Part shown: positions 406 through 59,182 of the stretch, one piece after another
Numbering within the stretch: position 1 is the first letter of the stretch
Layout of the letters: the number at the start of each line of letters is the position of its first letter
Assembly (NCBI RefSeq): GCF_002355155.1
Contig: NZ_AP017369.1
Coordinates: 2,728,001 to 2,792,000 of the forward strand
Reading direction: 5' to 3'
DNA length: 64,000 bases
From: Corynebacterium suranareeae
GTDB taxonomy: Bacteria; Actinomycetota; Actinomycetes; Mycobacteriales; Mycobacteriaceae
Position numbers and translations under genes: made by a program
Notes under the pieces: generated by a model
What the model saw: only the letters and a program-made list of their open reading frames with translations
Told to the model about the DNA's origin: nothing
The model's database searches: none

Positions 406-3009
406 TTGACATCCATTAATCTCACCCGGCAAGAAGCTCAGGATCGTTCGAGGTTATTAAGTGTAGAAAACTATGACATTGCACTTGATCTCAACAACGG
501 CGATGAGTTTTTTAGTTCCTCCACGGTTGTCAGCTTCACTGTGAGGGAGGCTGGAGATACTTTTATTGATCTTCGGGCGTCCAGTGTTGAGGAAGTCCGG
601 CTGGATAATGTGTCTATCAAAAATGAGGCTCTTACACTGGGCAAGACTGGCTATGACGAGACCTATGGTATTGCTCTAAAGGGGTTGACTCCTGGCGAGC
701 ACAAGCTGCGGGTCACGGCCACTATTCCTTATTCTCGCACTGGTGAAGGCCTGCACCGCATGGTGGATCCTGCGGATAATGAGGTGTATTTGTACACCCA
801 GTTTGAAACGGCCGACGCTAAACGCATGTTTGCTTGCTTCGACCAGCCGGATCTCAAGGCCACCTATGATTTGAATATCAAGACTCCTAAGGGTTGGAAG
901 ATTATTTCCAACTCAGAGCAGCAGGTTTCTACTCAGCATGCTGATTACGATACGCACGTGTCTCGTGTTGATTATCCACTGTCTACTTATTTGATTGCTG
1001 TGTGTGCGGGCCGCTACCACGAGGTACGTGATGTCTGGAACGGCACGTTGACTCATCATCCAGAGACTCCAGCAGGCCAGCCAACTGAGCTTTCTGTGCC
1101 ACTTGGTTTGTACTGCCGTCGCTCCTTGGCTAAAAATCTTGATGCGGAGCGCCTGTTCACTGAGACCAAGCAGGGCTTTGATTGGTATCACCGCAACTTT
1201 GGTGTGGCCTACCCGTTTGGCAAGTACGATCAGATTTTCGTCCCTGAATTTAACGCCGGCGCGATGGAAAACGCTGGTGCTGTGACTATTCGTGATGAAT
1301 ACGTCTTTGCCTCCAAGGCCACCCATTACCGCTATGAGCGTCGTGCAGAAACTATCCTCCACGAACTCGCACACATGTGGTTCGGCGATTTGGTCACGAT
1401 GCAGTGGTGGGATGACCTCTGGCTGAATGAATCCTTTGCCACCTGGTCAGCTGTGATTTCCCAGGCTGAGGAAACTGAATACGACAGCGCGTGGGTGACT
1501 TTTGCCAATGTGGAGAAATCCTGGGCTTACCAGCAGGATCAGCTGCCATCTACTCACCCGGTCTTTTCTGATGGCTACGATATTGAAACCGTCGATCAGA
1601 ACTTTGACGGCATCACGTATGCAAAGGGCGCGTCGGTGCTCAAGCAGCTGCAGGCCTATGTTGGGCGCGAGGAGTTTTTGGCTGGCGTGCGCAGGCACTT
1701 TGCCAATCATGCGTGGGGAAATGCCACCTTCGACGATCTGCTCGGCGCGCTTGAGCAGTCCTCCGGGCGCGATTTATCAGATTGGGCAAACCAGTGGCTG
1801 AAAACCACCGGCATCAACACCCTCGGCGCGGAATTCACCACTGACAACGGCAAGTACACGTCGTTCGCAGTCACCCAGACCGGCGCCGAGCCGGGCGCAG
1901 GTGAGCTGCGAACCCACCGCATCGCGGTGGGGCTTTATAAGCTTATCGACGGATCCCTCGACCGCTACGCACGAGTAGAACTTGACTGCAGTGGCGCGTC
2001 GACAAGCGTAGAAGAGATCATCGGACTTGAGCAGGCTGACTTCGTGCTGGTTAACGACGATGACCTGACGTACGCGCTGCTCGATTTGGATGAAGCGTCG
2101 CGCAACTTTGTCATTGACAATATCGATAAATTCAGCGATCCGATGCCTCGCACCCTGGTGTGGTCCGCCGCGTGGGAAATGACCCGCGCTGGCCAAATGA
2201 AGGCCCGCGATTTCATTGCGCTGGTCGCCCGCGGTGCTGCTGCCGAAACTGAAATCGCCGTGCTCGAGCGCATTCTCATGCAGGCAACTTCTGCGCTGAA
2301 GAACTACGCCGACCCAGCTTGGGCCAAGGAAACCGGAAATAATTTGCTTGCCGACGCCTTCCTCCACGGTGCCCGCACCGCCGACGCCGATTCGGACACC
2401 CAGCTGGCATTCATCCAAGCGCTGGCCAAGACCACGCTAAACGATGCCGCAGCTGAATACTTCCGCGATATTCTTGCCGGCAACATTAACGGTCTGACCG
2501 TGGATCCCGATCTGCGTTGGTGGGCGCTGACCGCTCTGATTGCTAGAGGCGATGTCGAGGATGCTGAAGAAGCAATTGCCACCGAGCTTTCTCGCGATAA
2601 TTCCAGTGCCTCTTATCTAGCATCGCTTCGTGCAGGTGCTGCAATCAACACCGAAGCAGTAAAAGAATCTGCATACAAGGAAGTCACCGCGCTGGATAGT
2701 GGCTTGTCCAACCTGGAACTACGCCACAAGATTGAAGGCTTAACCTTCACTGGGTCTTCTGACATTTTGCAGGCATACAACGAGCCGTACTTTAAGATCC
2801 TCGACGATGTCTGGGCGAACTTCTCCGGCGAAATGGCACAGCAGATCATCCTCGGGCTGTTCCCTGCATGGGACGTTTCGAAAGAAGGCCTCCAACGTGC
2901 CGATCGCTTCCTTGAAGATGACCACGTTGCAGGCATCAAACGAATTGTCTCTGAATCCCGCGACCGCACCGCCCGCGCGCTACGCAACCGGGAGGCGGAC
3001 GCTTCGTAG
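406..3009 (+). CDS. pepN: Aminopeptidase N (M1 family zinc metallopeptidase)
   Basis: This 867-residue cytosolic zinc aminopeptidase removes N-terminal amino acids from peptides. The gluzincin signature is complete: exopeptidase motif GAMEN at 285-289, HELAH at 319-323 and the third zinc ligand Glu342 in NESFA, giving the exact HEXXH-x18-E spacing. The C-terminal half (about 530-860) is the helical ERAP1-like domain usual in actinobacterial PepN, and the length is typical. The start is TTG at 406, set by AAGGAG at 393-398; no better in-frame ATG exists. It is monocistronic: an upstream divergent oxidoreductase and a strong terminator at 3030-3072 bound it. No signal peptide is seen. Confidence 0.95.
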   Translation: MTSINLTRQEAQDRSRLLSVENYDIALDLNNGDEFFSSSTVVSFTVREAGDTFIDLRASSVEEVRLDNVSIKNEALTLGKTGYDETYGIALKGLTPGEHKLRVTATIPYSRTGEGLHRMVDPADNEVYLYTQFETADAKRMFACFDQPDLKATYDLNIKTPKGWKIISNSEQQVSTQHADYDTHVSRVDYPLSTYLIAVCAGRYHEVRDVWNGTLTHHPETPAGQPTELSVPLGLYCRRSLAKNLDAERLFTETKQGFDWYHRNFGVAYPFGKYDQIFVPEFNAGAMENAGAVTIRDEYVFASKATHYRYERRAETILHELAHMWFGDLVTMQWWDDLWLNESFATWSAVISQAEETEYDSAWVTFANVEKSWAYQQDQLPSTHPVFSDGYDIETVDQNFDGITYAKGASVLKQLQAYVGREEFLAGVRRHFANHAWGNATFDDLLGALEQSSGRDLSDWANQWLKTTGINTLGAEFTTDNGKYTSFAVTQTGAEPGAGELRTHRIAVGLYKLIDGSLDRYARVELDCSGASTSVEEIIGLEQADFVLVNDDDLTYALLDLDEASRNFVIDNIDKFSDPMPRTLVWSAAWEMTRAGQMKARDFIALVARGAAAETEIAVLERILMQATSALKNYADPAWAKETGNNLLADAFLHGARTADADSDTQLAFIQALAKTTLNDAAAEYFRDILAGNINGLTVDPDLRWWALTALIARGDVEDAEEAIATELSRDNSSASYLASLRAGAAINTEAVKESAYKEVTALDSGLSNLELRHKIEGLTFTGSSDILQAYNEPYFKILDDVWANFSGEMAQQIILGLFPAWDVSKEGLQRADRFLEDDHVAGIKRIVSESRDRTARALRNREADAS

Positions 3010-3029
3010 CTATTAGTTTCTTCCCTAGC

Positions 3030-3072
3030 AATCCTGGCATGTTAACTGCACACGTAACATGCCAGGATTTTT
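3030..3072 (+). terminator. Rho-independent terminator after pepN
   Basis: A perfect 15-bp inverted repeat (3030-3044 with 3055-3069) closes a 10-nt loop and is followed by a short T-run. It starts 20 bp after the pepN stop codon. Confidence 0.85.
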
Positions 3073-3073
3073 C

Positions 3074-4457: not shown

Positions 4458-4461
4458 TGAC

Positions 4462-5514: not shown

Positions 5515-5637
5515 TTTTTATAGTTACCAGAGATTAACATCAGAAATTGGCGTGCGTTTGATGAAGAAAAACAATTCTTATTCCCTTACCTTTTCGGGGG
5601 TAAAACTTTCCAGCGAAGTGTCAGTAGTTGCGTTAGA

Positions 5638-6345: not shown

Positions 6346-6346
6346 C

Positions 6347-6992: not shown

Positions 6993-8504
6993 AGTCCGAT
7001 CCACGCTGTTGTCCCCGCGCAGGCGTTTCAGCACGTTTTCTGCAGAGATCAAACACATGGGCACTCCCACCCCTGGGACTGTGGTGGCACCTGCGTAATA
7101 CAGACCGTCCACTTTTCGGGATTTGTTGGAGCCTCTAAAAAATGCTGACTGCGCCAATGTGTGTGATGGGCCAATGGAACCGCCACGCCAGGAGTTGTAT
7201 CTGTCGGCGAAATCGGCGGGGCCGATGGTGCGTTGGACAACGATGCGGCTTTCCAGATCGTCGATTCCAGCCCATCGCCCGAGTTGAGCCACCGCTGCTT
7301 GTGCGATTCGGCCCACTAGTTCGGATTCTTTTCCGTAGGCAGAGCCGTGACCAATGGATACATCGGCAGGTACTGGAACGAGGATGAAGAGGTTTTCGTG
7401 GCCAGCTGGTGCTACGTCAGCATCCGTGGCGGAGGTTTTGGAAATGTAGATGGATTCAGAGGCAGGGAATTCTGATGTGGAGCCGTCGAAAACTTTGCGG
7501 AAATCTTCGTCCCAGTCGGAGGAAAACAGCAAGGTGTGGTGCAGTAATTCTGGAAGTTCTCCCTTCACGCCTGCCAACACCAGGACAGTGCTTAAGCCTG
7601 GTTGTTTATTCTTCCAGCTCGTCTCAGGCTTTTCGCGCAACGAAGCAGGTAGGAGTTGGGTTTCAGTGTGATGTTGATCGGCGCAGCTGACCACAATATC
7701 TGCGTCGATGAATTCAGAACCAACCTGAACGCCTGTGACGTTTCGGCCTTGGGTGGTGATCGCGGTGACGGGGGTGCCGAGGTGGAGGACGGCGTCGTCG
7801 ATAAGCGAAATCAGTGCGTTGATGAAGACGGTGAAGCCGCCGCGGGGATAGTTGACGCCCTGGACGAGGTCGGTGTGGCTCATGAGGTGATAGAGCGCGG
7901 GGGTGTGCGAAGGGTCAGAGGACAAAAATACTGCCGGGTAGCTTAGGATTTGGCGCAGTTTTGTATCGCGGAATTGGGTGTTGACCTTCACTTTTAGCGA
8001 GGTCGATAGGTTTGCCAGAAGTTTTGGCAATAGGCGCAGCACACCGGGGCTTAAGTACGGGATGAAGTTAGTGAAGTTGGTGTAGAGGAATCCGTCGATG
8101 GCCAGGTTGTATACCTGAGTGGCGGAATCGATGTAGGCGCGCAGTTTGGCGCCGGCACCGGGTTCGCGGGATTCAAAAAGTTCTGCCATCGCATCGATAT
8201 CGGAGGTGACATCGAGGTGTTCGCCGTGGTCGTCGATGACGCGGTAGGCGGGTTCAAGTGGCACGAGGTCGAGGTGGTCGTCGATGGAGGTGCCGCAGAG
8301 CTTAAAGAAGTGGGACATGGCGTCGGGCATGAGGTACCAGCTGGGGCCGGTGTCCCAGCGGAAGCCGTCGAGTTCGAAGGTCCCGGCGCGGCCGCCGAGG
8401 TGCTCGTTTTGTTCGACGAGGTGGACTTCATATCCTTCGCGTAAGAGCAGTGCGGTGGTGGCTAGTCCTGCTACTCCCCCACCGATGACCACTGCTTTTG
8501 TCAT
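6984..8504 (-). CDS. crtI: Phytoene desaturase (CrtI2-type)
   Basis: A 506-residue FAD-dependent amine-oxidase-fold desaturase that introduces double bonds into phytoene in the C50 carotenoid (decaprenoxanthin) pathway. The dinucleotide-binding GGGVAGLA is at the N-terminus, followed by the HLGGRAGTFELDGFRWDTGPSWY signature. The C-terminal CrtI signature is the stretch around YYAGATTVPGVGVPMCLISAE. The ATG at 8504 overlaps the crtB stop codon (ATGA), so the two are co-translated. A longer reading to 8525 would start inside crtB. The gene is uninterrupted here; I recall the second crtI copy of ATCC 13032 being annotated in two pieces (crtI2-1/crtI2-2), so an intact copy is worth noting. Confidence 0.9.
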   Translation of the reverse strand: MTKAVVIGGGVAGLATTALLLREGYEVHLVEQNEHLGGRAGTFELDGFRWDTGPSWYLMPDAMSHFFKLCGTSIDDHLDLVPLEPAYRVIDDHGEHLDVTSDIDAMAELFESREPGAGAKLRAYIDSATQVYNLAIDGFLYTNFTNFIPYLSPGVLRLLPKLLANLSTSLKVKVNTQFRDTKLRQILSYPAVFLSSDPSHTPALYHLMSHTDLVQGVNYPRGGFTVFINALISLIDDAVLHLGTPVTAITTQGRNVTGVQVGSEFIDADIVVSCADQHHTETQLLPASLREKPETSWKNKQPGLSTVLVLAGVKGELPELLHHTLLFSSDWDEDFRKVFDGSTSEFPASESIYISKTSATDADVAPAGHENLFILVPVPADVSIGHGSAYGKESELVGRIAQAAVAQLGRWAGIDDLESRIVVQRTIGPADFADRYNSWRGGSIGPSHTLAQSAFFRGSNKSRKVDGLYYAGATTVPGVGVPMCLISAENVLKRLRGDNSVDRTLT

Positions 8505-9421: not shown

Positions 9422-9433
9422 GCTTTTCGACGC
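9422..9433 (-). repeat. Copy of the 12-mer GCGTCGAMAAGC (intergenic)
   Basis: An exact GCGTCGAAAAGC on the minus strand, between crtB and the MFS gene, just past the MFS stop codon. See the finding on this repeated motif. Confidence 0.8.
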
Positions 9434-10631: not shown

Positions 10632-11867
10632 TTAGAGGAAACGCTTTGGCACTTCGGGTTCACCGAGCGACAGCATGAGGCGGTTCGCCCAGTTGAAGAA
10701 TGCCACCGAGTTGATCAGATCCACGATCTGTAGGTCGGTGTATCCCACTCCACGCAGCTTGGTGATGCATCCTTGGTTGAACGCGGAAGGAGTAGAACTT
10801 AGAGCGCGGGATGCATCGCGGATGACATTCCACTGATCAGAGCCTAGTTCTGCATCAATGCTTCCCAACAGCGCATTAACATCATCAGCACGACCGGATT
10901 CTTCCTGTGCACGGCCAGCATGCACAGATGCGCAGTAAACGCAGCCGTTGTAGCGCGAGGTTACAGTCGCTCCGAGTTCGCGCTCTGCTCGGCCCAGCCC
11001 TTCACCGTCGGTGTTGAAGAAAATATCCAAGTCAGTCAGGGTGCGCGCCTTCAGTGCTGCTGGATCACGTGCCAGCAGACGGAAGTATGGCATATCAGCA
11101 CGCTGAGGTTGGATTAATGAATCCAGCTGTTCCTCAGTCAGATCAGCCTTTTCAACTGGTGGCACCCATGGCTTCCAACCTAGGGAGTGGTTAACAAAGG
11201 CTTCTGGGCGATTGAGCTCTTCATAAGTTAGGATCTCAAATCCATTGTTGGACAGTTCCCACGAAGCCTCAGGGATGCTCAGGCGAGGAGCCTTAACCTG
11301 AATGTCTTCGCCTTTCAACGTGCGCAGACCATAAGCAACGCGCAGTTGGAATGCAAGGAAGGAAATAAGCTGAGCCAACGATACTGTGTCATCGGCGCTC
11401 CACCCTGCTGCAGAAAGTCGACCCAACACCTCTGGTCGGGAATCACGTGGGTGGAAAACCAACAGGTGTGCGTAATCAAAGGCAGCTGCGAGACGCTCGC
11501 CTAATTTGCTGGCATCGTTGCGAACAGATCCACCTGGTTCGGATTCGGACTCTAGGCCAGGCTCGCGGTAGGTTCCGTATGGTCCTGAAGACAAGCCGTG
11601 ATCGATGGCATCGGAAACAGCGTTGGCCAGGGTGGTTGGGGCATCGTCGAGAAGCAAATCTTGGTAGAGATCTACAGCTGGCGCGAATTGGTGAAGACCC
11701 GCAACATAGGTTGCTACAGCATAGCGCTCGCCGAAGCTGAATGTGCCTGGGTTTACTGGTTCAAGCAGAGCTTCGAAGCTCTTTTGTGCATTGTCGCGAG
11801 CTTGGGGACGGTTGTCACGCAGCTGTGGGAGGTCCTCCCCAACGAGCATGTCGATTAGATCTGACAT
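10632..11867 (-). CDS. AhpD-fold carboxymuconolactone decarboxylase (CMD) domain protein, Avi_7169/Avi_7170 type
   Basis: A 411-residue protein made of two AhpD-like halves. The C-terminal half has the peroxidase-like CxxCxxxH motif at Cys309, Cys312 and His316, with upstream glutamates in the usual helix. The full length and the neighbourhood (last gene of a peptide-type ABC importer operon) match the two-domain alkylhydroperoxidase/CMD family named after Agrobacterium vitis Avi_7169/7170. The ATG at 11867 lies 15 bp after the ATPase stop codon. With two McbR-like operators at the head of the operon, a role in use of an organosulfur compound is inferred. The reaction is unknown, and simple antioxidant activity is also possible. 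Confidence 0.75.
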   Translation of the reverse strand: MSDLIDMLVGEDLPQLRDNRPQARDNAQKSFEALLEPVNPGTFSFGERYAVATYVAGLHQFAPAVDLYQDLLLDDAPTTLANAVSDAIDHGLSSGPYGTYREPGLESESEPGGSVRNDASKLGERLAAAFDYAHLLVFHPRDSRPEVLGRLSAAGWSADDTVSLAQLISFLAFQLRVAYGLRTLKGEDIQVKAPRLSIPEASWELSNNGFEILTYEELNRPEAFVNHSLGWKPWVPPVEKADLTEEQLDSLIQPQRADMPYFRLLARDPAALKARTLTDLDIFFNTDGEGLGRAERELGATVTSRYNGCVYCASVHAGRAQEESGRADDVNALLGSIDAELGSDQWNVIRDASRALSSTPSAFNQGCITKLRGVGYTDLQIVDLINSVAFFNWANRLMLSLGEPEVPKRFL

Positions 11868-17221: not shown

Positions 17222-19165
17222 GTGAGCACGAACGATAAGCAAGTGGCCATCATCGGCGTAGGCCCCAGGGGCATTTCAGTATTGGAAAGGATTTCAGCAG
17301 CTCTCAATACTGTTTCAAGGCCACAACAGGGGCTTACCATTCACCTTGTCGAAGACTCTCAAATGGGCGCGGGCAACGTGTGGCGCACCGATCAAACCAG
17401 GACACTGTGTATGAATACGCTCGCTGGTGCGGTGACATTATTCACAGAGCCAGGCTCAACTGTTAGTGCCCCTGTTGTGGAAGGACCACTGCAGTTTGAT
17501 TGGATCCGACTTCTTCGTGGGGATGAAGATCTAAGCGGCATCCCGGAAAAAGCGATTGAACTGTTTCGAACCTATCCCCCGGCAGCATCTGTAGCTGAGG
17601 ATTTTAAAGAAGAATTAGCAGCTACTGTTATCCAGTCCAACCCTTCACGTGCTTTGTATGGAGCATATTTACGCTGGGCATTTGATGTTGCATTGCAGTT
17701 GTTGCCTGACTGGGTTCAGGTGGAACAGCACCATGCGCGTGCGATTGGTATTCGTGAAGACGGCGACCGCGATGTTATTACCTTAGATAATTCAGAAATG
17801 ATTTCTGCCGATTCCACGGTGTTGGCGGTCGGTTGGCAAACTCCTGCTTTTAACGCTGAGGAACAATCCATCCTCGCAGCTTTAGAAGAGCACCCTGATC
17901 TGGCCTGGGTGAAGCCTGGAAACCCGGTGGAACAAGATGCCAGCCTTATTCCTGCTGGTGAGCAGGTACTTGTGCGTGGTTTAGGCATGGGCTTTTTTGA
18001 CATCATGGCGCTGACCACAATTAATCGCGGGGGCATTTTCCACGAGGATCCCACCACGCGATCAGGTCTGCGCTATGAGGCTTCCGGTCAAGAACCGCAC
18101 TTTGTGATTTCCTCCGGACGCGGCTACCCTTACCTGCCCAAATCTGATTACAAATCACTGCCCCCTGGCGCGAAACTAGCGCGTCTTAAGGCTGTGATCT
18201 CGGCAATTACTGCACAAAATCGCGGTGTCGCATCCATCAACTACGATACTGAGGTGTGGCCAGCAGTTGCTCGCGACGCCTACGAAGCCTATTACGAAAC
18301 CCTCAACCGCGTTAGCCCAGAATCGATTCGCACGAGTCTGGATAAAATTGTGGAAGTAATTGATGAGGTGGACGTCGATAAGCTTCCTAAAGCACTCGCT
18401 GCGCACACTGATGACGTCTTTAACCTGCATGATTGGGAATTTCCGCTTGCGGGAATTAATGAAAGCGTCGAGGCACTGACCGCGCGCATCGCAGACGGCA
18501 TGGCGCGCGATATTCGCCATGCCGTCGCGGCGTGGGACAGCCCGCTCAAATCGGCACTCTGGTCCATTTCAGCGTCGCGCAAACCCAGCTCCATCCTGGG
18601 CGCGGAAGGCCGCCTCACCTTCGAATCGCGCCGCAACCGCTTCGCTGCCGTCATGGCGATCGGCCAAATGGTCGGCTCCGGACCACCGCTTTTCCGCACC
18701 CGCGAACTTCTAGCGCTTGTCGACGCCGGCCTCGCTCACTTCGCCGGCGCCCGCCCCCGGCTCAGCGTTAGCGACGGGAAATGGCAAATCATCTCGCCCA
18801 CCACCGGCGATACGCCGCTTCAGGCACGAGTGCTTGTCGACGCCTGGATGCACAACCCCGACGTACGTCGCAGCGCCGACCCGCTGGCACTCTCACTAGA
18901 AGACGCAGATCGGGTGCGACCATTCAACGACTATTCCATCGACGGCACAGCAGCGCCCACCGGCTCCCCTGAAGTTGATCCCGCCACCCGCCTGCTGGTT
19001 CACCCCAATGGAAATCTTGATCCACGCGTCCATCTGATTGGTATCCCCACGTATGGACAACTGCCTGATACCACCATTTCCCCCATGCCTGGAACCAACC
19101 CACTCATGCTGCAAGAAACGGACAAAACAGCCGTTCACGTGCTAAAGCAGATCGGGTTGATCTAG
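17222..19165 (+). CDS. FAD/NAD(P)-binding protein (NAD_binding_9 type), function unknown
   Basis: A 647-residue cytosolic protein with an N-terminal Rossmann motif (IIGVGPRGISVLERI) and a conserved GAGNVWRTDQTRTLCMNT block. These place it with actinobacterial FAD/NAD(P)-binding proteins similar to lysine/ornithine N-monooxygenase-like enzymes but of unproven reaction. A second nucleotide-binding stretch (VRGLGMGFFDIMAL) is near residue 250. The start is GTG 17222 with AGGAG 6 nt before it. It is the first gene of a pair with the aminotransferase 48 bp downstream and is divergent from the ABC importer operon, sharing the McbR-like operators. A role in processing the imported compound is inferred. 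Confidence 0.75.
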   Translation: MSTNDKQVAIIGVGPRGISVLERISAALNTVSRPQQGLTIHLVEDSQMGAGNVWRTDQTRTLCMNTLAGAVTLFTEPGSTVSAPVVEGPLQFDWIRLLRGDEDLSGIPEKAIELFRTYPPAASVAEDFKEELAATVIQSNPSRALYGAYLRWAFDVALQLLPDWVQVEQHHARAIGIREDGDRDVITLDNSEMISADSTVLAVGWQTPAFNAEEQSILAALEEHPDLAWVKPGNPVEQDASLIPAGEQVLVRGLGMGFFDIMALTTINRGGIFHEDPTTRSGLRYEASGQEPHFVISSGRGYPYLPKSDYKSLPPGAKLARLKAVISAITAQNRGVASINYDTEVWPAVARDAYEAYYETLNRVSPESIRTSLDKIVEVIDEVDVDKLPKALAAHTDDVFNLHDWEFPLAGINESVEALTARIADGMARDIRHAVAAWDSPLKSALWSISASRKPSSILGAEGRLTFESRRNRFAAVMAIGQMVGSGPPLFRTRELLALVDAGLAHFAGARPRLSVSDGKWQIISPTTGDTPLQARVLVDAWMHNPDVRRSADPLALSLEDADRVRPFNDYSIDGTAAPTGSPEVDPATRLLVHPNGNLDPRVHLIGIPTYGQLPDTTISPMPGTNPLMLQETDKTAVHVLKQIGLI

Positions 19166-22441: not shown

Positions 22442-22602
22442 ACCCCTGCCCACAGCCCAAGGCACCAGACCCCAGCCACCAACAACCCAGACGTCGACAA
22501 GCAAGCCCCTCATGTGGCTCCGACCCTGAATAAACCCCTATTTTTCTAAAAGTCACACTTTGCCATGTAGAAATTCAGCCGATCAAGAGTATTCTGTCGA
22601 CC

Positions 22603-23328: not shown

Positions 23329-24039
23329 TTAGTCTTTTCGGTCCGCCAGCTCGATCCGTGGTCGCACGTCCACGTTGGTGATCTGAGTTGTTTCGCCAGC
23401 GTCAATCACAAATCTGATTGCGTTGGCGATTTCTTTTGGCTCAATGTAGATCTCAGGTCGGAAGTCAGTTCCTTGCGAATCCATAAGTCCTCGCAGCATG
23501 GGGGTGTCGGTGGGGCCGGGGCTCACGGTGCTGACTCGGATGCCGTTGTTGGCTTCTTCTTTGCGGAAGGCGTCGGCAAGCCCGCGCAGTGCGTGTTTGC
23601 TGGCCGCATAAATGGTGTTGCCGGGGTGGGGGCCGTTGCCGGCGCCGGAGTTAATGTAAATCACGCAGCCAGATGCCGCGCGAAGTGCGGGCAGAAGTTG
23701 GCGGCTCAGCTCGGCTGGGACGATGACGTTGAGGTCCAGGTGCGCGTGCCACTCAGCCACACTGCCCGCCTCCACGGTCGTATCACGGGCCACCGCCGCA
23801 GCATGCACCAGCGTATCCACGCGGTCAAGGTTTTTTAGCTTGTCGACGCCTCCCTTCTCCAACACATCCGTCACGATGTCAGACTCCACCGCTTCTACTC
23901 CGTCGATCTCCGCCAGTGTGGCTAGGTGCTCCGGATTTCGTCCCACTGCGTAGACAATATGATCGCGCACGAGGTCTTTGACGATCTCAATTCCCATGCC
24001 TCCGGTCGCTCCAGTAACCACTGCAATCCTGTTTTTCAT
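23329..24039 (-). CDS. Short-chain dehydrogenase/reductase (SDR)
   Basis: A 236-residue NAD(P)-dependent classical SDR. It has TGATGGMG for cofactor binding near the N-terminus, a conserved VHAAA after strand 4, the catalytic Ser of YINSGAG and YAASKHALRG with the Tyr-xxx-Lys pair, then SPGPTDTP. The start is ATG 24039 with an AAAGGTTGAGG ribosome site; a reading to 24111 would overlap the promoter. It is divergent from a TetR regulator that probably controls it. Substrate unknown. Confidence 0.88.
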   Translation of the reverse strand: MKNRIAVVTGATGGMGIEIVKDLVRDHIVYAVGRNPEHLATLAEIDGVEAVESDIVTDVLEKGGVDKLKNLDRVDTLVHAAAVARDTTVEAGSVAEWHAHLDLNVIVPAELSRQLLPALRAASGCVIYINSGAGNGPHPGNTIYAASKHALRGLADAFRKEEANNGIRVSTVSPGPTDTPMLRGLMDSQGTDFRPEIYIEPKEIANAIRFVIDAGETTQITNVDVRPRIELADRKD

Positions 24040-26176: not shown

Positions 26177-26971
26177 TTAATGCAGCCCCTCAAAGGCAAA
26201 CCACCGACCACGAACTGTCTCCAGCGCAACGGACATGTCATATAACGCACCCAAATTGTCGGGTGTCATGACCTCTTCAACTGTTCCAGCTGCCAGCACA
26301 CGGGCGTCTTTGATCATCAAGATATTTGTGGTGGAGGCAGCAATTTCTTCGACGTGGTGGGTAATCATCACGGTGGTGAGCTCCGGCATAGAGGCTCGCA
26401 GCGTATCGATGACACCCAGCAGAGTTTCACGTCCCGGCAGGTCAAGGCCGGTGGTGGGTTCGTCGAGAAGCAGCAACGCGGGTGAGATGACAAGCGCACG
26501 TGCAATTAACGTTCGTGCTTTTTCGCCCTGGCTCATATCTACCCAGAAGCGATCGGCGCGCGAAGCCATACCCACTAGCTCGATCATTTCAGTGCATTTG
26601 GCCAGCTGCTCATCAGTGGCAGTCCACCTTGGCAGCACACCGTTAGACGCAGTTAACCCCGACAGCACAATTTCATGGGCAGGCATATTGCTAAATTTTT
26701 GTTTCGGATCCACCAGGCCGATTGTTTTGCGCAGCTCGCGGGTATCTACACGGCCGAAACGATGCCCCAAAATATCTACGGTGCCTTCCGAGGGGTACAG
26801 CAAGGTGGCTGCAATCTTTAACATGGTGGTTTTACCTGCGCCATTTGGTCCAAGTACGGCCCAATGCGAGCCGGTGGGAATATCAAGGGAGATGTCGTCG
26901 AGAAGCAATTTTTCCCCACGCCGGACGGTAACGTTGGACATTGTTAAGGCTAGTTTGGACATGCTGGCCAT
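26177..26971 (-). CDS. ABC transporter ATP-binding protein
   Basis: A 264-residue single ABC cassette with Walker A GPNGAGKTT, a Q-loop region (IGLVDPKQKF), an unusual signature VDMSQGEKAR (in place of LSGGQ), Walker B LLLLDEPTTGLD and the switch histidine (MITHHVEE). The variant MSQGE signature resembles stand-alone cassettes of the ModF/iron-complex type. No permease gene is adjacent, so the partner is unknown. The start may be ATG 26971 or 26962. It is divergent from the MscS gene, with only 51 bp between. Confidence 0.85.
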   Translation of the reverse strand: MASMSKLALTMSNVTVRRGEKLLLDDISLDIPTGSHWAVLGPNGAGKTTMLKIAATLLYPSEGTVDILGHRFGRVDTRELRKTIGLVDPKQKFSNMPAHEIVLSGLTASNGVLPRWTATDEQLAKCTEMIELVGMASRADRFWVDMSQGEKARTLIARALVISPALLLLDEPTTGLDLPGRETLLGVIDTLRASMPELTTVMITHHVEEIAASTTNILMIKDARVLAAGTVEEVMTPDNLGALYDMSVALETVRGRWFAFEGLH

Positions 26972-32379: not shown

Positions 32380-32391
32380 GCGTCGAAAAGC
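32380..32391 (+). repeat. Copy of the 12-mer GCGTCGAMAAGC (intergenic)
   Basis: An exact GCGTCGAAAAGC, ending one base before the stop codon of the CopD/CtaG gene. See the finding on this repeated motif. Confidence 0.8.
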
Positions 32392-34566
32392 TTATGCTTT
32401 TGGCCCGGAGTCTGCAGGCCCTGGATCTTTAGGCTCGAACGTTTCCTGGTAGTAATCGCCGTGCAAGTCGTGCCCTTCATTCATGCGGGCAAGCATTTTG
32501 TTGTATTCCTCTGCGTCGGCGTAACCAGTGGCTTCGGCTTGGGCTTCGTATTTTTTCTCCACGATTCTTTCCTCACGGAACCAACCACGGAAGAGGTAAC
32601 CAAAGACAATAATCAGCGGGAATGAACCCGACGCCCATGCGATTCCGCCACCAACAAGCTGGTCATAGGCCAGATCAACGTCCCATGGCAGGTTGAGCTT
32701 GCTGTAGAAATCTTCTGCCAAAATCACTTGCAGTTGCATGAGGTATACGCCGAAGAAGAGGTGGAACGGCATCGAGAAGGTCAGCCACGCAAGGCGGGAA
32801 ACGTGTGTGCGCTCCTCCGGTTTGGGGTCTGGGCCAATCATTTCCCAGTAGTAAAGGTAGCCGGAAATCACGAACACAAAGTTCATGATCAGGTGTCCGG
32901 CGTGCTCAGAGACCATGATGTCGTACAGCGGGGTCAGATACAGCGCGTAGAAAATGATGATGAACTGAATGGTGTTTACCGCTGGGTGCATGATGAACTT
33001 CAGCAACGGATTATCTGTCAGCACCGCTGCCCATTCATGTAGGCCTGGGCGTCCAGCTTCACCGGGCGATGTGGCTTCCATGATCAACGTCAGTGGCGCG
33101 CCAAGCACCAAAAATACGGGGATGACCATGGACAACAGCATGTGCGCGACCATATGCATGGAAAACGTCGCCGGCATATTCATGCCGATGCCGGAAGAAA
33201 CGGTGACCACCAGGGTGGCACAGCCCAGCATCCACCAGAAGGTGCGCAGGTGGTTCCACTTTTTTGCTTGTCGACGCAACCCCACAAGGCCACAGATATA
33301 GAACGCCACTAACAAAATGCCGATTGTGCCCAGCATTAAATCAAAGCGCCACATGGTAAACACGTTGAATAAGGTTGGTTCTTTTTCCAAGGAATAGCCC
33401 ATTTCCAACGCCATAACAGATAAATCTTGAAGTTCTGGCGTCGGTGGCGGAGTACGGCCCATGGAAATCGCAATGCCGGTCACCGCTGCCATCGCGATCA
33501 CCTCAACAATGGCAACGCGTGTAAATAACGCCGAATCTTTCGGGTTTTTCTCAAGCTTTGGGATGGTCAGAGTGCGGTGCGCCAGGCCAAACATGCCAAC
33601 GACAACAACGCCGATGGCTTTAGCAAGAACCAGCAGGCCGTAAGTGGTGGTAAACAAATCAGAAAAATCCATACGCAACAACGCATTAACAATTCCTGAG
33701 ATCGCCATACCGATCACGGCATAGGTGGCAACTATGGAATACCGCTTAACTGCAATATCAGTATTTGGGCCGATCCTGCGAGCATGCGCAATCAACGCCA
33801 TCAAACCGCCCACCCACAACAACATCAGCACCAAGTGCCACAACAGTGAGTTGGTTCCATAATCATGATCGCCACCTGCAGCCGAGTGCCCCTCTAGCCC
33901 GAGTGGCACTGTCATCACAATCGCACCGGCAAACAACAATGGCTGCGACATCCATGAACGACAAAACAGTCCCGCTATTCCAGTTATAAACGCAAAACCA
34001 GCTACCCAGGCCCACGCTTTTGCCAGCGCAATTTGCTCAAAAGCAACCGCTATATTCTGAGGCTTTAATGCGTCGGTAAACGGTTGCCCCGAAAGATCAG
34101 ACATCACCAACGGGATCATCACAAGCGCCACAAGCCCAAAACAAATAGCAGCAAAAGAACCAGTTCGAGCAGCAATCAACCCATCGACTGACAAGTACGA
34201 ACGGTTGAGGTACGTGGCCGGCGTAGCACCATCCTCAGCGCTTCGTTTTATCTCCCGCGGACTAATAAAAAACGTCGTTGCCATAAAACTACCCACAGAC
34301 AATGCAGCAACAATCCAGCCGACTGCACGCAGAAACGGCAAACCTGCAGTAGTGACAGGACCTGGATCAGGAATACCCAAAGCTGCCAGGGACTCAGAAA
34401 GGAAACCCCACGCCAAAATAGCTCCGACTAAACCAGCCACAAAAGCAAACAACACATAAAAAGGCCAAGTGATTTTAACCTTGCTGCTTTTCGCTTGTGA
34501 CGCTTGTGATTGTGACGCTGGAGAAGTTACTCCACCAGAATTCTCGGCAACGACCTGCTCATCCAT
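32392..34566 (-). CDS. Fused CopD (copper resistance D) and CtaG (caa3-type oxidase assembly) membrane protein
   Basis: A 724-residue inner-membrane protein with about 14-15 hydrophobic segments in two halves. The N-terminal part (40-400) has CopD-like helices and the VLMLLWVGGLMALIAHAR stretch. The C-terminal part (about 410-660) is CtaG-like: HMVAHMLLSMVIPVFLVLGAP and a YLYYWEMIGPDP segment, ending in a charged tail. The fusion is usual in actinobacteria and is thought to deliver copper across the membrane, probably for cytochrome oxidase assembly. The start is ATG 34566, close to a GGGGG stretch, so translation may be leaderless. It carries one copy of the 12-mer at 33266. Confidence 0.88.
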   Translation of the reverse strand: MDEQVVAENSGGVTSPASQSQASQAKSSKVKITWPFYVLFAFVAGLVGAILAWGFLSESLAALGIPDPGPVTTAGLPFLRAVGWIVAALSVGSFMATTFFISPREIKRSAEDGATPATYLNRSYLSVDGLIAARTGSFAAICFGLVALVMIPLVMSDLSGQPFTDALKPQNIAVAFEQIALAKAWAWVAGFAFITGIAGLFCRSWMSQPLLFAGAIVMTVPLGLEGHSAAGGDHDYGTNSLLWHLVLMLLWVGGLMALIAHARRIGPNTDIAVKRYSIVATYAVIGMAISGIVNALLRMDFSDLFTTTYGLLVLAKAIGVVVVGMFGLAHRTLTIPKLEKNPKDSALFTRVAIVEVIAMAAVTGIAISMGRTPPPTPELQDLSVMALEMGYSLEKEPTLFNVFTMWRFDLMLGTIGILLVAFYICGLVGLRRQAKKWNHLRTFWWMLGCATLVVTVSSGIGMNMPATFSMHMVAHMLLSMVIPVFLVLGAPLTLIMEATSPGEAGRPGLHEWAAVLTDNPLLKFIMHPAVNTIQFIIIFYALYLTPLYDIMVSEHAGHLIMNFVFVISGYLYYWEMIGPDPKPEERTHVSRLAWLTFSMPFHLFFGVYLMQLQVILAEDFYSKLNLPWDVDLAYDQLVGGGIAWASGSFPLIIVFGYLFRGWFREERIVEKKYEAQAEATGYADAEEYNKMLARMNEGHDLHGDYYQETFEPKDPGPADSGPKA

Positions 34567-36771: not shown

Positions 36772-36783
36772 GCTTTTCGACGC
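36772..36783 (-). repeat. Copy of the 12-mer GCGTCGAMAAGC (intergenic)
   Basis: An exact GCGTCGAAAAGC on the minus strand, immediately after the tRNA-His terminator. Confidence 0.8.
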
Positions 36784-37291: not shown

Positions 37292-37303
37292 GCTTTTCGA
37301 CGC
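37292..37303 (-). repeat. Copy of the 12-mer GCGTCGAMAAGC (intergenic)
   Basis: An exact GCGTCGAAAAGC on the minus strand, 24 bp after the AraC-gene stop codon, upstream of the frameshifted NTF2-like gene. Confidence 0.8.
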
Positions 37304-38376: not shown

Positions 38377-39822
38377 ATGAATCTTGTCTACGACAAGTTC
38401 TTTATCGGTGGTAAGTGGATAGCTCCGGCGAGCGATCAAGTCATCACGCCTATTAATCCCAGTACAGAGCAAACTATCGGGCAAGTACCTGATGCTGTAG
38501 AAGCTGATATTGATAACGCAGTCTCAGCTGCACGAACTGCTTTCGATGATCCAAGTGTGTGGTCTGGGTGGGAACCAACAGAACGCGCCAAAGTCATGCA
38601 CAAGCTTGCCGATGAAATCGATGCTCGAGCTGCAGATTTCCAAACTCGTGTGAGCTCACAAAACGGCATGCCTGTGTCTGTGGCTGCTCAACTAGAAACT
38701 GGATACCCCAGTGCAATTCTGAGGTATTACGCCGACCTTGTCAGCACAACATCATTCTCAGAAATCCGGCCAGGCATGTTCGGCGGTGAGATTGAGGTTC
38801 GTCGACAAGCAATCGGCGTGGTGGCGGCAATTGTGCCGTGGAATTTCCCCCAAGCATTGACCATGTTTAAACTCGCGCCAGCATTGGCCACTGGCTGCAC
38901 CATTGTGATCAAGCCGTCTCCAGAAACTGTGTTGGATGCATACCTTCTGGCTGAAGCCGTGGAAGCTGCCGGCGTACCTGACGGTGTAGTCAACATCGTT
39001 CCCGGCGGACGTGAGCCTGGCGCCTATTTGGTTGCTCACCCGCAGGTCAACAAGGTGGCTTTTACTGGTTCGACAGCTGCTGGACAAAAAATCGGCGAGG
39101 TATGTGGACGTTTGCTGCGCCCGGCAACCTTGGAGCTTGGTGGTAAATCGGCAGCCATTGTGCTTGATGATGCTGATCTGGATCTCGCCAAAATCGGAGA
39201 AGGTCTATTCACTTCTACCCTGCTTAATAACGGGCAGACCTGTTTCCTTGGAACCCGAATTCTTGCCCCACTGTCACGGTATAAGGAAGTCGTCGACGCA
39301 TTTACTGCTTTTGCTGGCAGCCTGCAAGTTGGGCCTGTGTCCTCCCCTGAGACTCAAATCGGCCCAATGGCAACTGCCCGTCAGCGTGAGCGTGTGGAAT
39401 CCTACATTTCTCAAGGAAAATCCTCCGGTGCTCGCATCACAGTTGGTGGCAGCCGCCCTCAGGATCTTGACGCTGGATTCTTCATCGAACCAACAGTATT
39501 TGCAGATGTAGACAACACCGCAAAAATAGCTCAAGAAGAAATCTTCGGCCCCGTACTCTCTGTCATTTCTTACAAAGACGATGAGCACGCCATCCAATTA
39601 GCCAACAATTCCGATTTCGGCCTCGGAGGAACCGTGTGGACTAGTGATCCAGAGAGAGGCGCCGCATTGGCGCGCCGGGTGCAGACCGGAACAATTGGCA
39701 TTAACCGCTACATCCCCGATCCAGCCGCGCCATTTGGCGGTGTGAAAAACAGCGGCCTTGGCAGAGAATTAGGCCCTGAAGGCTTGGCGGCGTACCAAGA
39801 AACCCAAACCATCTACCTGTAG
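38377..39822 (+). CDS. NAD(P)-dependent aldehyde dehydrogenase
   Basis: A 481-residue ALDH-superfamily enzyme oxidising an aldehyde to the acid. The oxyanion asparagine is in VPWNFPQALTMFK, the general-base glutamate in LELGGKSAAIVLDDADLD, and the nucleophilic cysteine in NNGQTCFL. The start is ATG 38377 with GAAAGG 10 nt upstream. It is followed 31 bp later by the alcohol dehydrogenase gene, so the pair would convert alcohol to acid through the aldehyde. Substrate specificity (for example aromatic versus aliphatic) cannot be decided from the sequence. Confidence 0.9.
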   Translation: MNLVYDKFFIGGKWIAPASDQVITPINPSTEQTIGQVPDAVEADIDNAVSAARTAFDDPSVWSGWEPTERAKVMHKLADEIDARAADFQTRVSSQNGMPVSVAAQLETGYPSAILRYYADLVSTTSFSEIRPGMFGGEIEVRRQAIGVVAAIVPWNFPQALTMFKLAPALATGCTIVIKPSPETVLDAYLLAEAVEAAGVPDGVVNIVPGGREPGAYLVAHPQVNKVAFTGSTAAGQKIGEVCGRLLRPATLELGGKSAAIVLDDADLDLAKIGEGLFTSTLLNNGQTCFLGTRILAPLSRYKEVVDAFTAFAGSLQVGPVSSPETQIGPMATARQRERVESYISQGKSSGARITVGGSRPQDLDAGFFIEPTVFADVDNTAKIAQEEIFGPVLSVISYKDDEHAIQLANNSDFGLGGTVWTSDPERGAALARRVQTGTIGINRYIPDPAAPFGGVKNSGLGRELGPEGLAAYQETQTIYL

Positions 39823-40954: not shown

Positions 40955-40987
40955 AAGCAAAAAGATTTTGCTTTTCGACGCCACCCT
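40954..40987. repeat. Left copy of a 28-nt repeat (hairpin plus 12-mer)
   Basis: The identical 28-nt stretch spans 40960-40987 here and 41415-41442 on the other side of the XRE gene. It includes TTTTGCTTTT, the 12-mer (minus-strand copy at 40970-40981) and CCACCCT. In this copy AAAAGCAAAA at 40954 pairs with TTTTGCTTTT, a 10-bp stem. Confidence 0.85.
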
Positions 40988-41411: not shown

Positions 41412-41442
41412 AGCAAAAGATTTTGCTTTTCGACGCCACCCT
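41412..41442. repeat. Right copy of the 28-nt repeat
   Basis: Bases 41415-41442 are identical to 40960-40987. AGCAAAA and TTTTGCT form a short hairpin, and the 12-mer lies at 41425-41436. The last two bases overlap the stop region of the next minus-strand gene. Confidence 0.85.
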
Positions 41443-41893: not shown

Positions 41894-41905
41894 GCGTCGA
41901 CAAGC
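41894..41905 (+). repeat. Copy of the 12-mer GCGTCGAMAAGC (intergenic)
   Basis: An exact GCGTCGACAAGC, in the region between the TM2-like gene and the larA homologue. Confidence 0.8.
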
Positions 41906-49039: not shown

Positions 49040-50280
49040 AGGGTTCTTAAAAGCCTGGTGAGTTCAGTGAGCATATGCACCCGCCACCAGGCCCAATCGT
49101 GGCCGCCATGCACGCCGCGTACTCGGACTTCGCGGATATCGCCGGAAAGATCCTCGGCGAGCTGATGCGACAAACGCAACATTTCGCCCTCATATTTTCC
49201 TGCCTGCAGGTGGATGGAACTCCACTGCTCAGCGGTGGAAAGGGCATCGGCAACGTTGAAGCGCCACAGACTTGGTGATTGCGCGATAGCGTGGCCAACT
49301 TCGCCGTCGGCAAGCGCAAGTGCCCACAGCGATGCAAGGCCCCCGAAGCTTGCACCGGTGACAATGGTGTCTTCGCCGCGCGCGGAGACGTTGTAGTTGG
49401 CGCGGACGTGCGGGAGGATGGCGTCGATAAGCACATCAACCTGCCCACCTGGCACGCCGACGCTATCCCAGCGGCGCTCGACATCGACGGAGTCAAGCAT
49501 GAGAAGGCTGACTGGCGGCAGCACGCCCAGCGCGATTGCCGCATCGACTTGCGCAGGCAGATTCATGCCGTTGTTCCAGTGCTGGCCGTCAAAAAGGATC
49601 AGCAGCGGCGCTTTGACCGGCGCCTCATAAAACCAAAAATGCTCGCCGGCTACAGTTTCCTCCGCGACTTTTACGCTTGTCGACGCCGCAACCCAGCAGT
49701 CCGGCAACGCATCAGGGCCTTCCACGAGCGAGGAATCCATGATCTGCCCCATCGCGCGGGTATCCAAACGGCCTCCCGACATGGCGGCTTTGCGGATATG
49801 CATCCGATCACCAGCCTCACGCCACGGAGGAACACCCTCGCCTTCCCACGCATTTACGGTGTAGCTTGCCCGCCAATCCGAAGGCATGCGCAGGCTTAAA
49901 ATCCACAAATCTGAGCCTTCAAGGCGAGTCATCTCAGAATCTTCGATGCTTTCATGATCGAAGATGCCATTAATCCACAGCAGGACAGCGTTTGCACCCG
50001 GGCACTCGACAATCCAGGTGTACATGCACACATCAGGATTACCGTCTGGATCATCATCGATGATCGGATTGGGTTTCGCCAAAGCTGACACAGCCATGTC
50101 ACCACAGCGCCTGGCCGAGCGTTCTCCACCTTCACGGACCGCTTCACTCCATGAAATTTCCATGGGGCTTTGAATGCGCACGTGGCGTTTGGGGTTGTGT
50201 GATGGCACGGTTGGCGACAACTCCACATGAGCGGACCCATTGCGGTCCACCCACGTTTTCGTCTGCCGGAACGGTGGCAT
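49036..50280 (-). CDS. Fes-like enterochelin/trilactone siderophore esterase
   Basis: A 414-residue cytosolic alpha/beta-hydrolase. The N-terminal half is Fes-like ([24 protein letters not shown] region), and the C-terminal esterase-D domain has [15 protein letters not shown], catalytic Ser311 in GASFGG, and His394 in GGHDWAWW, with Asp expected between. It resembles enzymes that open iron-loaded enterobactin-type trilactones and release iron. The start is ATG 50280 with AAGGGG upstream. No siderophore transport or synthesis genes are in this window, so a partner siderophore is unknown. It ends against orn. Confidence 0.8.
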
Positions 50281-52424: not shown

Positions 52425-52497
52425 TTCTTCCCGAATGCATCCTTTCGACGCAAGAAATGACCTGCACACAAGTTGCGTGCAGGCCTACTTAGCCGAA

Positions 52498-56745: not shown

Positions 56746-56786
56746 GGAAAATCTCCTTAATTTTATTTAAGTACTAAAACTACCGG

Positions 56787-58028
56787 TCATGTTCGCTGCG
56801 TGCAGATGGTGCCGTCGGAGAATGTGAAATCGGGCAGTACGTCATCCGGGTCGAGGATGGATACTTCAAAGCCTGCGTCGCGGATACGTTTGAGGCCTTC
56901 TTTGATCATGCGGATAGCTACGGGGTGGAAGCTGAGAACGCGGGTGAGATCGAGGACAACCTCTTTGCCTTCAAAGTTGTGTTCAACGATGGCGTGGAGG
57001 AAGCTTTCGCTGGCGGAGAAGTTCATGGCACCTTGCATTTGGATGAAGGTGGTGTCGCCTTCTTTGGTAATCGATCGTACTGCGTGGCCGGATACCTGCT
57101 CGGTGGACATGAGGTGGAGGCCCATGTCGTCGGAAAGCCGTTTGAAAATGTCTACGCCGCGCACGCTGTTGCCTTTGGGGTTAAGCCGTGGGGAGAATGT
57201 GGCGATTCCCAATTGGCCTGGCAGGATTCCGATCAGGCCACCGGCGACTCCTGATTTGGCGGGGATTCCTACGGTGGACAGCCACTGACCAGCTTCGTCG
57301 TACATGCCCGCTGAGGCCATAACGGAAAGAGTTAGGCGGCAGACGCGGGCGTCGAGAAGCTTCTTTCCGGTGATGGGATGCGTGCCACCGGCGGCAAGCG
57401 TTGCCGTCATGACTGCTAGATCGCGCGCGGTTACTTTGATGGCGCATTGGAGGGTGTAGCTTAAAACGGCGTCGTGGGCTTCGTCTTCAATGACACCGTA
57501 ATTGCGCAGCATGTGTGCGATGGAGAGGTTGCGGTCGGCGACGCTGATTTCAGATTCGGCGAGGACTCGGTCGATGGTTAGTTCGCGGCCGGCTAGTTCG
57601 GAGAAATATTGGCGCAGTTTTTCCACGCGGTCTTCCACTGAGGATTCTGAGCCGTTGATTAATTGGTTAATCGCGATGGCACCGGCGTTGATCATGGGGT
57701 TCATGGGTCGGTTTTCACCGTCGAGGGAGAGTTCGTTGAAGGCTTCGCCGGAGGGTTCTAGTGCGACGGCTGACGATACTTTGTCCAAGCCACATTCTTG
57801 AAGTGCTAATGCGTAGGCAAAGGGTTTGGAAATACTTTGCATGGTGAATTCGGTGTCATCATCACCAGCGCTGTAGATGCGTCCATCGACGGTGCATATC
57901 GCTACTGCCAGTGGGTTTGGGTCGGCAGTGTGTAATTCTGGGATGTAGTCAGCTACCTCGCCGGAGGTGTTGTTTCGGACATTGTCCAAAATTTCGCGCA
58001 GGTACTCAGGAATGGGCATCGTCAGCAT
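56787..58028 (-). CDS. glsA: Glutaminase with C-terminal STAS domain
   Basis: A 413-residue protein. Residues 1-310 form the beta-lactamase-fold glutaminase that hydrolyses glutamine to glutamate and ammonia, with the Ser in FTMQSISKPFAYALAL and GAIAIN. The remainder (about 320-410) is a STAS domain (AVRSITKEGDTTFIQMQGAMNF, then VVLDLTRVLSFHPVAIRMIKEGLK). The start is ATG 58028 with AGGCTGG before it, though ATG 58019 is possible. It is divergent from the LacI gene. Confidence 0.93.
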   Translation of the reverse strand: MLTMPIPEYLREILDNVRNNTSGEVADYIPELHTADPNPLAVAICTVDGRIYSAGDDDTEFTMQSISKPFAYALALQECGLDKVSSAVALEPSGEAFNELSLDGENRPMNPMINAGAIAINQLINGSESSVEDRVEKLRQYFSELAGRELTIDRVLAESEISVADRNLSIAHMLRNYGVIEDEAHDAVLSYTLQCAIKVTARDLAVMTATLAAGGTHPITGKKLLDARVCRLTLSVMASAGMYDEAGQWLSTVGIPAKSGVAGGLIGILPGQLGIATFSPRLNPKGNSVRGVDIFKRLSDDMGLHLMSTEQVSGHAVRSITKEGDTTFIQMQGAMNFSASESFLHAIVEHNFEGKEVVLDLTRVLSFHPVAIRMIKEGLKRIRDAGFEVSILDPDDVLPDFTFSDGTICTQRT

Positions 58029-58072
58029 GAACGCCAGCCTAATGATTTCTTTTGCGCTATATACTCATTTTC

Positions 58073-59182
58073 ATGACAGATTCGGGGGATTCAAAGGCCA
58101 CCATCTATGATGTAGCAAAAGTCGCTGGCGTTTCCCCTTCCACTGTGTCCAGGGCGTTTTCGCAGCCTGGGCGTGTGAGTTTTTCTACCGCTGAGAAGAT
58201 CCGTCAGGCAGCTCTTCAGGTAGGTTACGGCCGGCATGTGGAAACGCCCGCTTTTCAGCGCCAGAACACCGGCATCATCGCCATGGTTGCAGCGGATGCC
58301 TCCAACCCGTTCTTTTTGGAAATTTTCCGGGGCGCGCAGCATGCTGCAAGCACGCAGGGCTATACGGTTGCGCTTGTCGACGCCCGGGAGTCTGCGATCA
58401 AGTCCAGGCAGGTGCTGGACAAGATTGTGCCACACGCCGATGGCTTATTATTGGCGGCTTCTCGGATGGATTCGGGAGAAATCCAAAAGGTCGCTAGAGA
58501 AATCCCCACTGTATTAATGAGCCGTGAGGTGCAAGGAATCCCCAGTGTGATGGTGGATAACTATGACGGGGCAGCAAAAGCCGTTGTGCATTTGGTTGAT
58601 CAGGGGTGCAAGTCCATCACCTATATTGCAGGTCCTAATAAATCGTGGGCGGATGCCACGCGCTGGCGCGGGCTCGTTGATGCAGCAAGCTCGCTGGCGG
58701 TGGCCGCTGATGCGAAGAGGGGGGCGTCGACAAGCGCTATTTCGATCTCGCGGAGTGTCACGGTGCAGCCAGGTAGGATGCGTCATTTGTTAAAACCTAA
58801 GGTGAAGACGCTGTCGGTGGAGTCGCCGGATTTTGTCGGTGGGCGGCGTGCATTTGAGCTGTGGGCGAAGGATCCTACGGATGCGGTGATTTGCTTCAAC
58901 GACTTGGTGGCGCTGGGATTTATGCAGCAAGCGAGGCTTTCTGGCGTGCGGGTGCCTCAAGATGTTGCGGTCGTGGGTTTTGATAATACGGAGATTTCGG
59001 TGCTGAGCACACCCTCGCTGACTACGGTGGCAGGACCGCTTCGGGCGGTTGGTCGAGTGGCAACCGCCAATCTGATCGCACTGCTCAAAGGCATGAAAGC
59101 ACCTTTGATGGCTAAACCACGTGAGCTGCCCACGCGTCTCATTGTGCGGGAATCGTCGCTAAAGGCTTCTCCTGATTCTTGA
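58073..59182 (+). CDS. LacI-family regulator, probably of the hexuronate operon, with an internal extra segment
   Basis: A 369-residue regulator, about 35 residues longer than the usual 330-340. The N-terminal HTH (TIYDVAKVAGVSPSTVSRAFSQPGRVSF) and sugar-binding PBP-like domain (TGIIAMVAADASNPFFLEIF and AVICFNDLVALGFMQQA) are complete. Between AASSL and KVKTLSVESPD (residues about 208-245) there is a basic, unfamiliar stretch containing GASTSA, which does not look like the LacI family; it fits an in-frame insertion and includes one copy of the repeated 12-mer at 58724. ATG 58073 is preferred over 58052. The next operon begins 69 bp downstream. Confidence 0.8.
   Translation: MTDSGDSKATIYDVAKVAGVSPSTVSRAFSQPGRVSFSTAEKIRQAALQVGYGRHVETPAFQRQNTGIIAMVAADASNPFFLEIFRGAQHAASTQGYTVALVDARESAIKSRQVLDKIVPHADGLLLAASRMDSGEIQKVAREIPTVLMSREVQGIPSVMVDNYDGAAKAVVHLVDQGCKSITYIAGPNKSWADATRWRGLVDAASSLAVAADAKRGASTSAISISRSVTVQPGRMRHLLKPKVKTLSVESPDFVGGRRAFELWAKDPTDAVICFNDLVALGFMQQARLSGVRVPQDVAVVGFDNTEISVLSTPSLTTVAGPLRAVGRVATANLIALLKGMKAPLMAKPRELPTRLIVRESSLKASPDS

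Follow-up and report, generated by a model that had tools for sequence, protein, structure and literature searches.

A clade-variable, highly repeated DNA motif of Corynebacterium as a candidate self-DNA tag of the uptake-sequence kind

The closest described counterparts of the motif analyzed here are the DNA uptake sequences (DUS) of the Neisseriaceae and the uptake signal sequences (USS) of the Pasteurellaceae. In the excerpts of the literature consulted, uptake sequences are described as evenly spaced and free of orientation bias (PMC1939737), as scarce in newly acquired DNA, underrepresented in coding sequence, present in overlapping inverted pairs and accompanied by side tracts (PMC7811141), and as forming clade dialects recognized by pilin receptors (PMC12616744); an excerpt on the actinobacterium Micrococcus luteus describes competence served by Flp/Tad pili (PMC6370729). 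Here, we followed up a 12-mer, GCGTCGAMAAGC, which an earlier note had pointed out in a 64,000-nucleotide stretch of the Corynebacterium suranareeae chromosome (NZ_AP017369.1, positions 2,728,001-2,792,000; the window), part of a genome of one contig with 3,537,507 bases (G000). We confirm the repeat, which is more extensive than first described, and the interpretation that we favor, at a probability of roughly 0.5, is that the motif may be a self-DNA tag of the DUS/USS kind. Like DUS and USS, it has a strict core of about 10 bp and hundreds of copies per Mb on both strands, is evenly spaced and lacking in newly acquired DNA, forms overlapping inverted pairs, is placed at gene ends and varies in spelling by clade, in hosts that possess competence genes. 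Unlike DUS and USS, it belongs to an actinobacterium with a Tad/Flp locus in place of a type IVa pilus, has a G-rich side, an equal density in coding DNA and an exclusion in G000 that acts on the same strand only, and its association with competence and a receptor is putative.

Across G000, 392 exact copies of the 12-mer were counted (207 + 185), as compared to 2 for the reversed word used as control for motif counts; models of four types (Markov, shuffle, uniform or Poisson) supplied the expected values here and below. All 15 exact copies and both additional forms with N in place of M reported for the window were recovered at their positions, and their number lies far above chance as had been argued, with the chance expectation itself shifting from 0.015 to a mean of 0.05 and a maximum of 1 in 100 dinucleotide shuffles of the window. 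When one mismatch was allowed, the window held 36 copies as compared to 1.37 expected. The leading G was the sole difference in 147 of 219 one-mismatch copies and is a preference only, some variation was tolerated at the A position (39 of 219) and any base at the N position, and the letters C-G-T-C-G and A-A-G-C were near-invariant after relaxation of the word; the strict core is CGTCGANAAGC. This core occurred 372 times in a position sample of 1.244 Mb that includes the window (35% of the genome), which extrapolates to about 1,060 copies in the whole genome or about 300 per Mb, and the N-form of the 12-mer was found 225 times in the sample as compared to once for its reversed control. The ten or so bases 5' of the core are G-rich in G000, with the consensus GGTGGAGGGNG, and the six bases 3' of it are A/T-rich. 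Both biases are present at intergenic copies as well as in the larger genic frame classes, and outside the core conservation is limited to base composition.

Positions were evaluated in the sample with genes called by a crude purpose-made gene caller. Since 79% of the sample was called coding and 297 cores were genic and 75 intergenic, the motif is equally dense in both. The genic copies use all frames, which bears out the assertion that the signal acts on DNA and not through the protein: the most common reading is antisense, as L-[VIL]-D, others are VDK/VEK, RRQA/RRKA and ASTS, and the translations listed for the window (ASTS, GVDK, RRQA and L-V-D) all recurred in the sample in different frames. 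The orientation of the 372 cores relative to replication was balanced (184:188, P 0.88), the terminus being set by GC skew at about 1.75 Mb. Cores occur over the whole map without a density trend apart from one empty region, and their distribution was more uniform than chance would give (variance/mean 0.56 for counts per 10 kb, 0.56 to 0.69 overall). The empty region lies at 1.92-2.12 Mb, where four of four stretches (80 kb) contained no core although about 25 were expected. Two of these stretches encode a D5-like primase and a MobL relaxase, which marks the region as mobile, at least in part; as a whole it looks like an integrated mobile element, so that underrepresentation in a newly acquired segment is seen in this single region. 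Three of the four 20-kb stretches are, moreover, strongly C-skewed (-0.14 to -0.15). Gene 3' ends lay within 60 bp of 26 of the 75 intergenic copies, as compared to 11.9% of random intergenic positions; the proposed proximity to transcription ends thus holds, to a moderate degree. Furthermore, overlapping inverted (palindromic) pairs numbered 8 with 0.4 expected, six of them at 9 bp and two at 11 bp.

The window itself contains 28 cores, 15 on the plus and 13 on the minus strand. The excess of minus-strand copies noted earlier (11 minus and 6 plus) is correct for the 17 copies then listed and disappears with the core. The copies are the following:

1941..1951, minus strand, core CGTCGANAAGC
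1996..2007, plus strand, 12-mer GCGTCGACAAGC
7796..7806, plus strand, core CGTCGANAAGC
9422..9433, minus strand, 12-mer GCGTCGAAAAGC, 5 bp off the stop of open reading frame (ORF) 9439-10560 (minus)
11645..11655, plus strand, core CGTCGANAAGC
18373..18383, plus strand, core CGTCGANAAGC
18715..18726, minus strand, 12-mer GCGTCGACAAGC
18832..18843, minus strand, 12-mer GCGTCGACAAGC
22492..22502, plus strand, core CGTCGANAAGC
23838..23849, minus strand, 12-mer GCGTCGACAAGC
26461..26471, plus strand, core CGTCGANAAGC
26896..26906, plus strand, core CGTCGANAAGC
28736..28746, plus strand, core CGTCGANAAGC
32380..32391, plus strand, 12-mer GCGTCGAAAAGC, abutting the stop of ORF 32392-34566 (minus)
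33266..33277, minus strand, 12-mer GCGTCGACAAGC
36772..36783, minus strand, 12-mer GCGTCGAAAAGC
37292..37303, minus strand, 12-mer GCGTCGAAAAGC, 23 bp off the stop of ORF 37327-38235 (minus)
38800..38810, plus strand, core CGTCGANAAGC
40970..40981, minus strand, 12-mer GCGTCGAAAAGC, 15 bp past the stop of ORF 39854-40954 (plus)
41425..41436, minus strand, 12-mer GCGTCGAAAAGC, 4 bp off the stop of ORF 41441-41857 (minus)
41894..41905, plus strand, 12-mer GCGTCGACAAGC
49421..49432, plus strand, N-form of the 12-mer GCGTCGATAAGC
49675..49686, minus strand, 12-mer GCGTCGACAAGC
57349..57360, plus strand, N-form of the 12-mer GCGTCGAGAAGC
58372..58383, minus strand, 12-mer GCGTCGACAAGC
58724..58735, plus strand, 12-mer GCGTCGACAAGC
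59899..59909, minus strand, core CGTCGANAAGC
61350..61360, plus strand, core CGTCGANAAGC

The motif is found across much of the genus and is nearly restricted to it. Among 201 Corynebacterium genomes, the 12-mer was counted no more than 7 times in 60 and 9 to 591 times in 141, with at most 11 copies of the reversed control per genome. The earlier note had named a random density and a lack of conservation in other corynebacteria as grounds for giving the signal up; both the genome-wide count and this distribution favor a real signal. In nine of the 201 genomes a dialect with the spelling CATCG, CATCGANAAGC, replaces the usual word at 289 to 611 copies. The dialect follows phylogeny as judged from a tree of TadA (48 genomes, a single protein, midpoint root, some long branches): all 11 CATCG genomes placed on it fall into one group of 13 rows, the two remaining rows of which are poor in both spellings, and 13 motif-poor genomes make up one side of the tree. 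The other 13 motif-poor genomes are placed elsewhere, two of them within the CATCG group, and the motif or its spelling has therefore changed several times. On the motif-poor side, G010 (loci L105-L107 and L158-L162) over-uses the word CTGGTGGCGTCG, frequently followed by purine-rich DNA, and its 9-mer GTGGCGTCG occurred 41 times in 160 kb with 4.4 expected, which makes CTGGTGGCGTCG a possible further dialect. A further dialect may tentatively be seen in GGCGTCAATA of G054 (L217-L220; 6 copies in 80 kb, 0.12 expected), and a de novo word search in the motif-poor genomes G162, G146, G119 together with G041, G194, G151 and G131 yielded nothing convincing. In 185 genomes from 30 other genera of the family the 12-mer was mostly near the control level, with at most 27 copies; six of the 14 genomes of genus g23 (G279, G292, G315, G345, G354 and G374) had 20 to 27 copies as compared to 3 to 8 for the control. 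Additionally, a search with a helicase of G000 gathered 49 named loci. Of these, 35 came from Corynebacterium or its family, and 31 of the 35 contained cores, among them the C. gallinarum locus with 9 cores in 22 kb; the 14 others contained none. When up to 7.9 kb of one region was compared with eight relatives, two shared sites (three in total) and six shared none; motif positions therefore turn over between species, as far as these small numbers tell. No account of such a motif in Corynebacterium was found among the literature matches listed, judged mostly by title, and the letters of the 12-mer do occur in 20 published texts, two of them on C. glutamicum, as judged from the listing.

The genes that an uptake system would use are present. 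In G000, comEA adjoins comEC (L145:9377-11041, minus strand), the Competence domain is the only Pfam match of the 554-residue ComEC, and the Tad/Flp locus is syntenic with those of seven other genomes examined. The Pfam Competence domain (ComEC) was matched in 200 of 201 genomes, the T2SSE domain of the Tad ATPase scored above cut-off in 195 of 201, and an HHH_3 match of the size of ComEA was found in 67 of 70 genomes, G124, G137 and G200 being those without; the best HHH_3 match per genome is another, larger protein and the ComEA-sized match comes second. A search of 48 tad loci for Flp, TadE and TadF did not recover them in every locus. Corynebacteria possess an outer mycomembrane, and a surface receptor is therefore plausible. 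We propose that a surface receptor of competent Corynebacterium would bind DNA carrying the core and its flanks, and that the bound DNA would then be brought inside by retraction of a Tad pilus and by ComEA and ComEC. By analogy with ComP, a minor pilin of Neisseria, the most plausible candidate for the receptor is a minor pilin encoded in the Tad/Flp locus. Recombination of tagged DNA from kin would spread the tag over the chromosome until one copy stood every few kb, new mobile DNA would lack it, and clades would shift its spelling as the receptor changes. Among the matches listed, ComEC frames of at least 640 codons were seen in 15 of 29 motif-poor genomes and 12 of 120 others, a comparison of 150 listed rows with one fragment dropped that is confounded with clade.

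Several observations weigh against an uptake tag. The density of the motif is the same within and between genes, whereas uptake sequences are underrepresented in coding sequence. ComEC, the Tad ATPase and the ComEA-like HHH_3 protein are equally common in motif-free genomes, and the competence genes therefore do not track the motif; the presence or absence of any of these, or of PDDEXK_1 nuclease domains, was rejected as its cause. G200, with 91 CATCG copies, had neither a ComEC match nor a ComEA-sized HHH_3 match, its assembly being 90% complete and a gap possible, and G137, with 86 CATCG copies, had no ComEA-sized HHH_3 match; we regard both gaps as weak evidence against the uptake interpretation and kept its odds. 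The flanks beyond G000 also differ: the A/T-rich tract was absent at 33 CATCG sites and was reduced to one A at 155 sites in named loci, which is weak counter-evidence, and in both sets the strongest G's are spaced three bases apart, which may reflect codon periodicity. In G110, a CATCG genome, plus-strand spacing was random (coefficient of variation 1.03, first 100 of 291 sites). Among the literature matches listed, no report of natural transformation in the genus was found. Finally, the repulsion of copies on the same strand only, as seen in G000, is unexpected for an orientation-independent uptake.

For same-strand pairs in G000 the ratio of observed to expected was 0.34, 0.34, 0.44, 0.36, 0.51 and 0.54 in successive bins covering distances of 100 bp to 3 kb, whereas opposite-strand bins scattered near 1 (0.6 to 1.7); at 15 to 100 bp there was no same-strand depletion (6 as compared to 5.0 expected). 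By Monte Carlo simulation, 78 same-strand pairs within 3 kb stood against 139 expected, a value as low being reached in none of 600 runs, and 173 opposite-strand pairs against 171. Neighboring copies were on the same strand in 103 cases and on opposite strands in 205, with strand shuffles giving 136.7 same (standard deviation 8.1), and in 16 loci outside the sample there were 0 same-strand and 8 opposite-strand pairs within 1.5 kb, with 7.7 expected of each. Four octamers used as controls, with about 100 sites apiece, showed no significant depletion, the lowest value being 6 as compared to 10.6. In relatives of G000 the effect was weak or absent, and it is not uniform in the genus: the named loci (33 loci with 155 sites; L240 and L242, two of the four core-free family loci, were omitted) gave 14 same-strand pairs against 22.0 and 11 opposite-strand pairs against 24.2 within 1 kb, and 47 against 63.6 and 63 against 69.3 within 3 kb, and the word of G010 gave 1 against 4.9 and 5 against 5.1 within 1 kb.

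Exclusion on the same strand only suggests a directional reader in G000. The motif might be a directional self-DNA signal that is selected for coverage independently in each strand orientation and is uptake tag and Chi-like signal in one; we put this forward as a tentative possibility. Its reader would be a translocating machine of Corynebacterium, the candidates being AdnAB and an uptake motor through which DNA passes in a single direction. Such a signal would differ from DUS and USS, which are orientation-blind, and from Chi, which is replication-biased. The main rival to the uptake tag, somewhat less likely still, is a Chi-like, strand-specific signal at which a helicase-nuclease, most likely AdnAB, would be switched from end degradation to recombination, so marking self DNA. 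Chi of RecBCD/AddAB resembles the motif in its frequency of about one per few kb and its G-rich side, and the exclusion below 3 kb with independent opposite strands would fit such a signal. In addition, GSTGGAGG, which we take to be the Chi form of H. influenzae, is matched in at least seven of eight letters at position -12 of 11% of sites as compared to at most 3% at other offsets, and the G010 word CTGGTGGCGTCG contains CTGGTGG. PDDEXK_1 domains, usually three and presumably those of AdnA and AdnB judging by ORF length, were present in 201 of 201 genomes. They are, however, as common in motif-free genomes, and G073, with 91 CATCG copies, has one PDDEXK_1 match only. The excerpt of PMC13309787 describes as unclear how AdnAB handles a Chi-like step. 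RecC was found in none of the 201 genomes, and a RecBCD-Chi signal as such was rejected on this ground; moreover, the core is longer than Chi and lacks its bias with replication. When 95 Chi sites in 400 kb of E. coli K-12 were put through the same test, they clustered on the same strand (52 pairs within 2 kb as compared to 27.5 expected), the opposite of the motif, which weakens the exclusion as a pointer to Chi, as does its weakness or absence in relatives.

A site for a chromosome-organizing protein, either a nucleoid protein, as the earlier note had also considered, or a boundary of the SMC type, would account for the even spacing (variance/mean of about 0.6) and for copies over the whole map with an empty mobile region. 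We consider it unlikely, as genomes of one and the same genus carry anywhere from 0 to 591 copies of the 12-mer, the spelling changes between genomes, spacing in G110 is random and no candidate protein presents itself. Two further proposals of that note did not survive. A small mobile repeat, resembling a miniature inverted-repeat transposable element or a repetitive extragenic palindrome, would agree with the many copies and some inverted pairs; it is very improbable and was rejected, since conservation beyond the core is one of base composition with no longer repeat unit, genic copies lie in all frames, the dialect follows clade and sites turn over between species. Least credible of all, with hardly any weight left to it, is an FtsK-orienting sequence (KOPS) or a matS-like terminus signal: the G-rich flank and the many copies would suit it, but orientation by replichore is balanced, no polarity toward dif was seen, and copies are neither concentrated around nor confined to the terminus, as placed by GC skew, so that it is contradicted in G000 by orientation counts and map alike. 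HIP1 of cyanobacteria, a highly over-represented octameric palindrome, is likewise a short word of one bacterial group; unlike palindromic HIP1, the motif is asymmetric and has biased flanks.

If the motif is an uptake tag, many Corynebacterium species are predicted to be naturally transformable and to choose DNA of their kin, self-tagging would extend to an actinobacterial lineage beyond the Neisseriaceae and Pasteurellaceae described in the literature used here, and genetic tools would gain a sequence handle in the word. In the Chi-like case, the motif would be a sequence that AdnAB recognizes. On either account, the question is testable with one oligonucleotide.

Two other repeats were observed during the comparison. 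In G147 (L090-L093), words such as CGGGGAACAC recur about 53 times within 80 kb and probably represent an array of clustered regularly interspaced short palindromic repeats (CRISPR). In G132 (L156, L221 and L222), the palindrome TGCACGTGCA was found 18 times in 60 kb on both strands, as compared to 0.07 expected.

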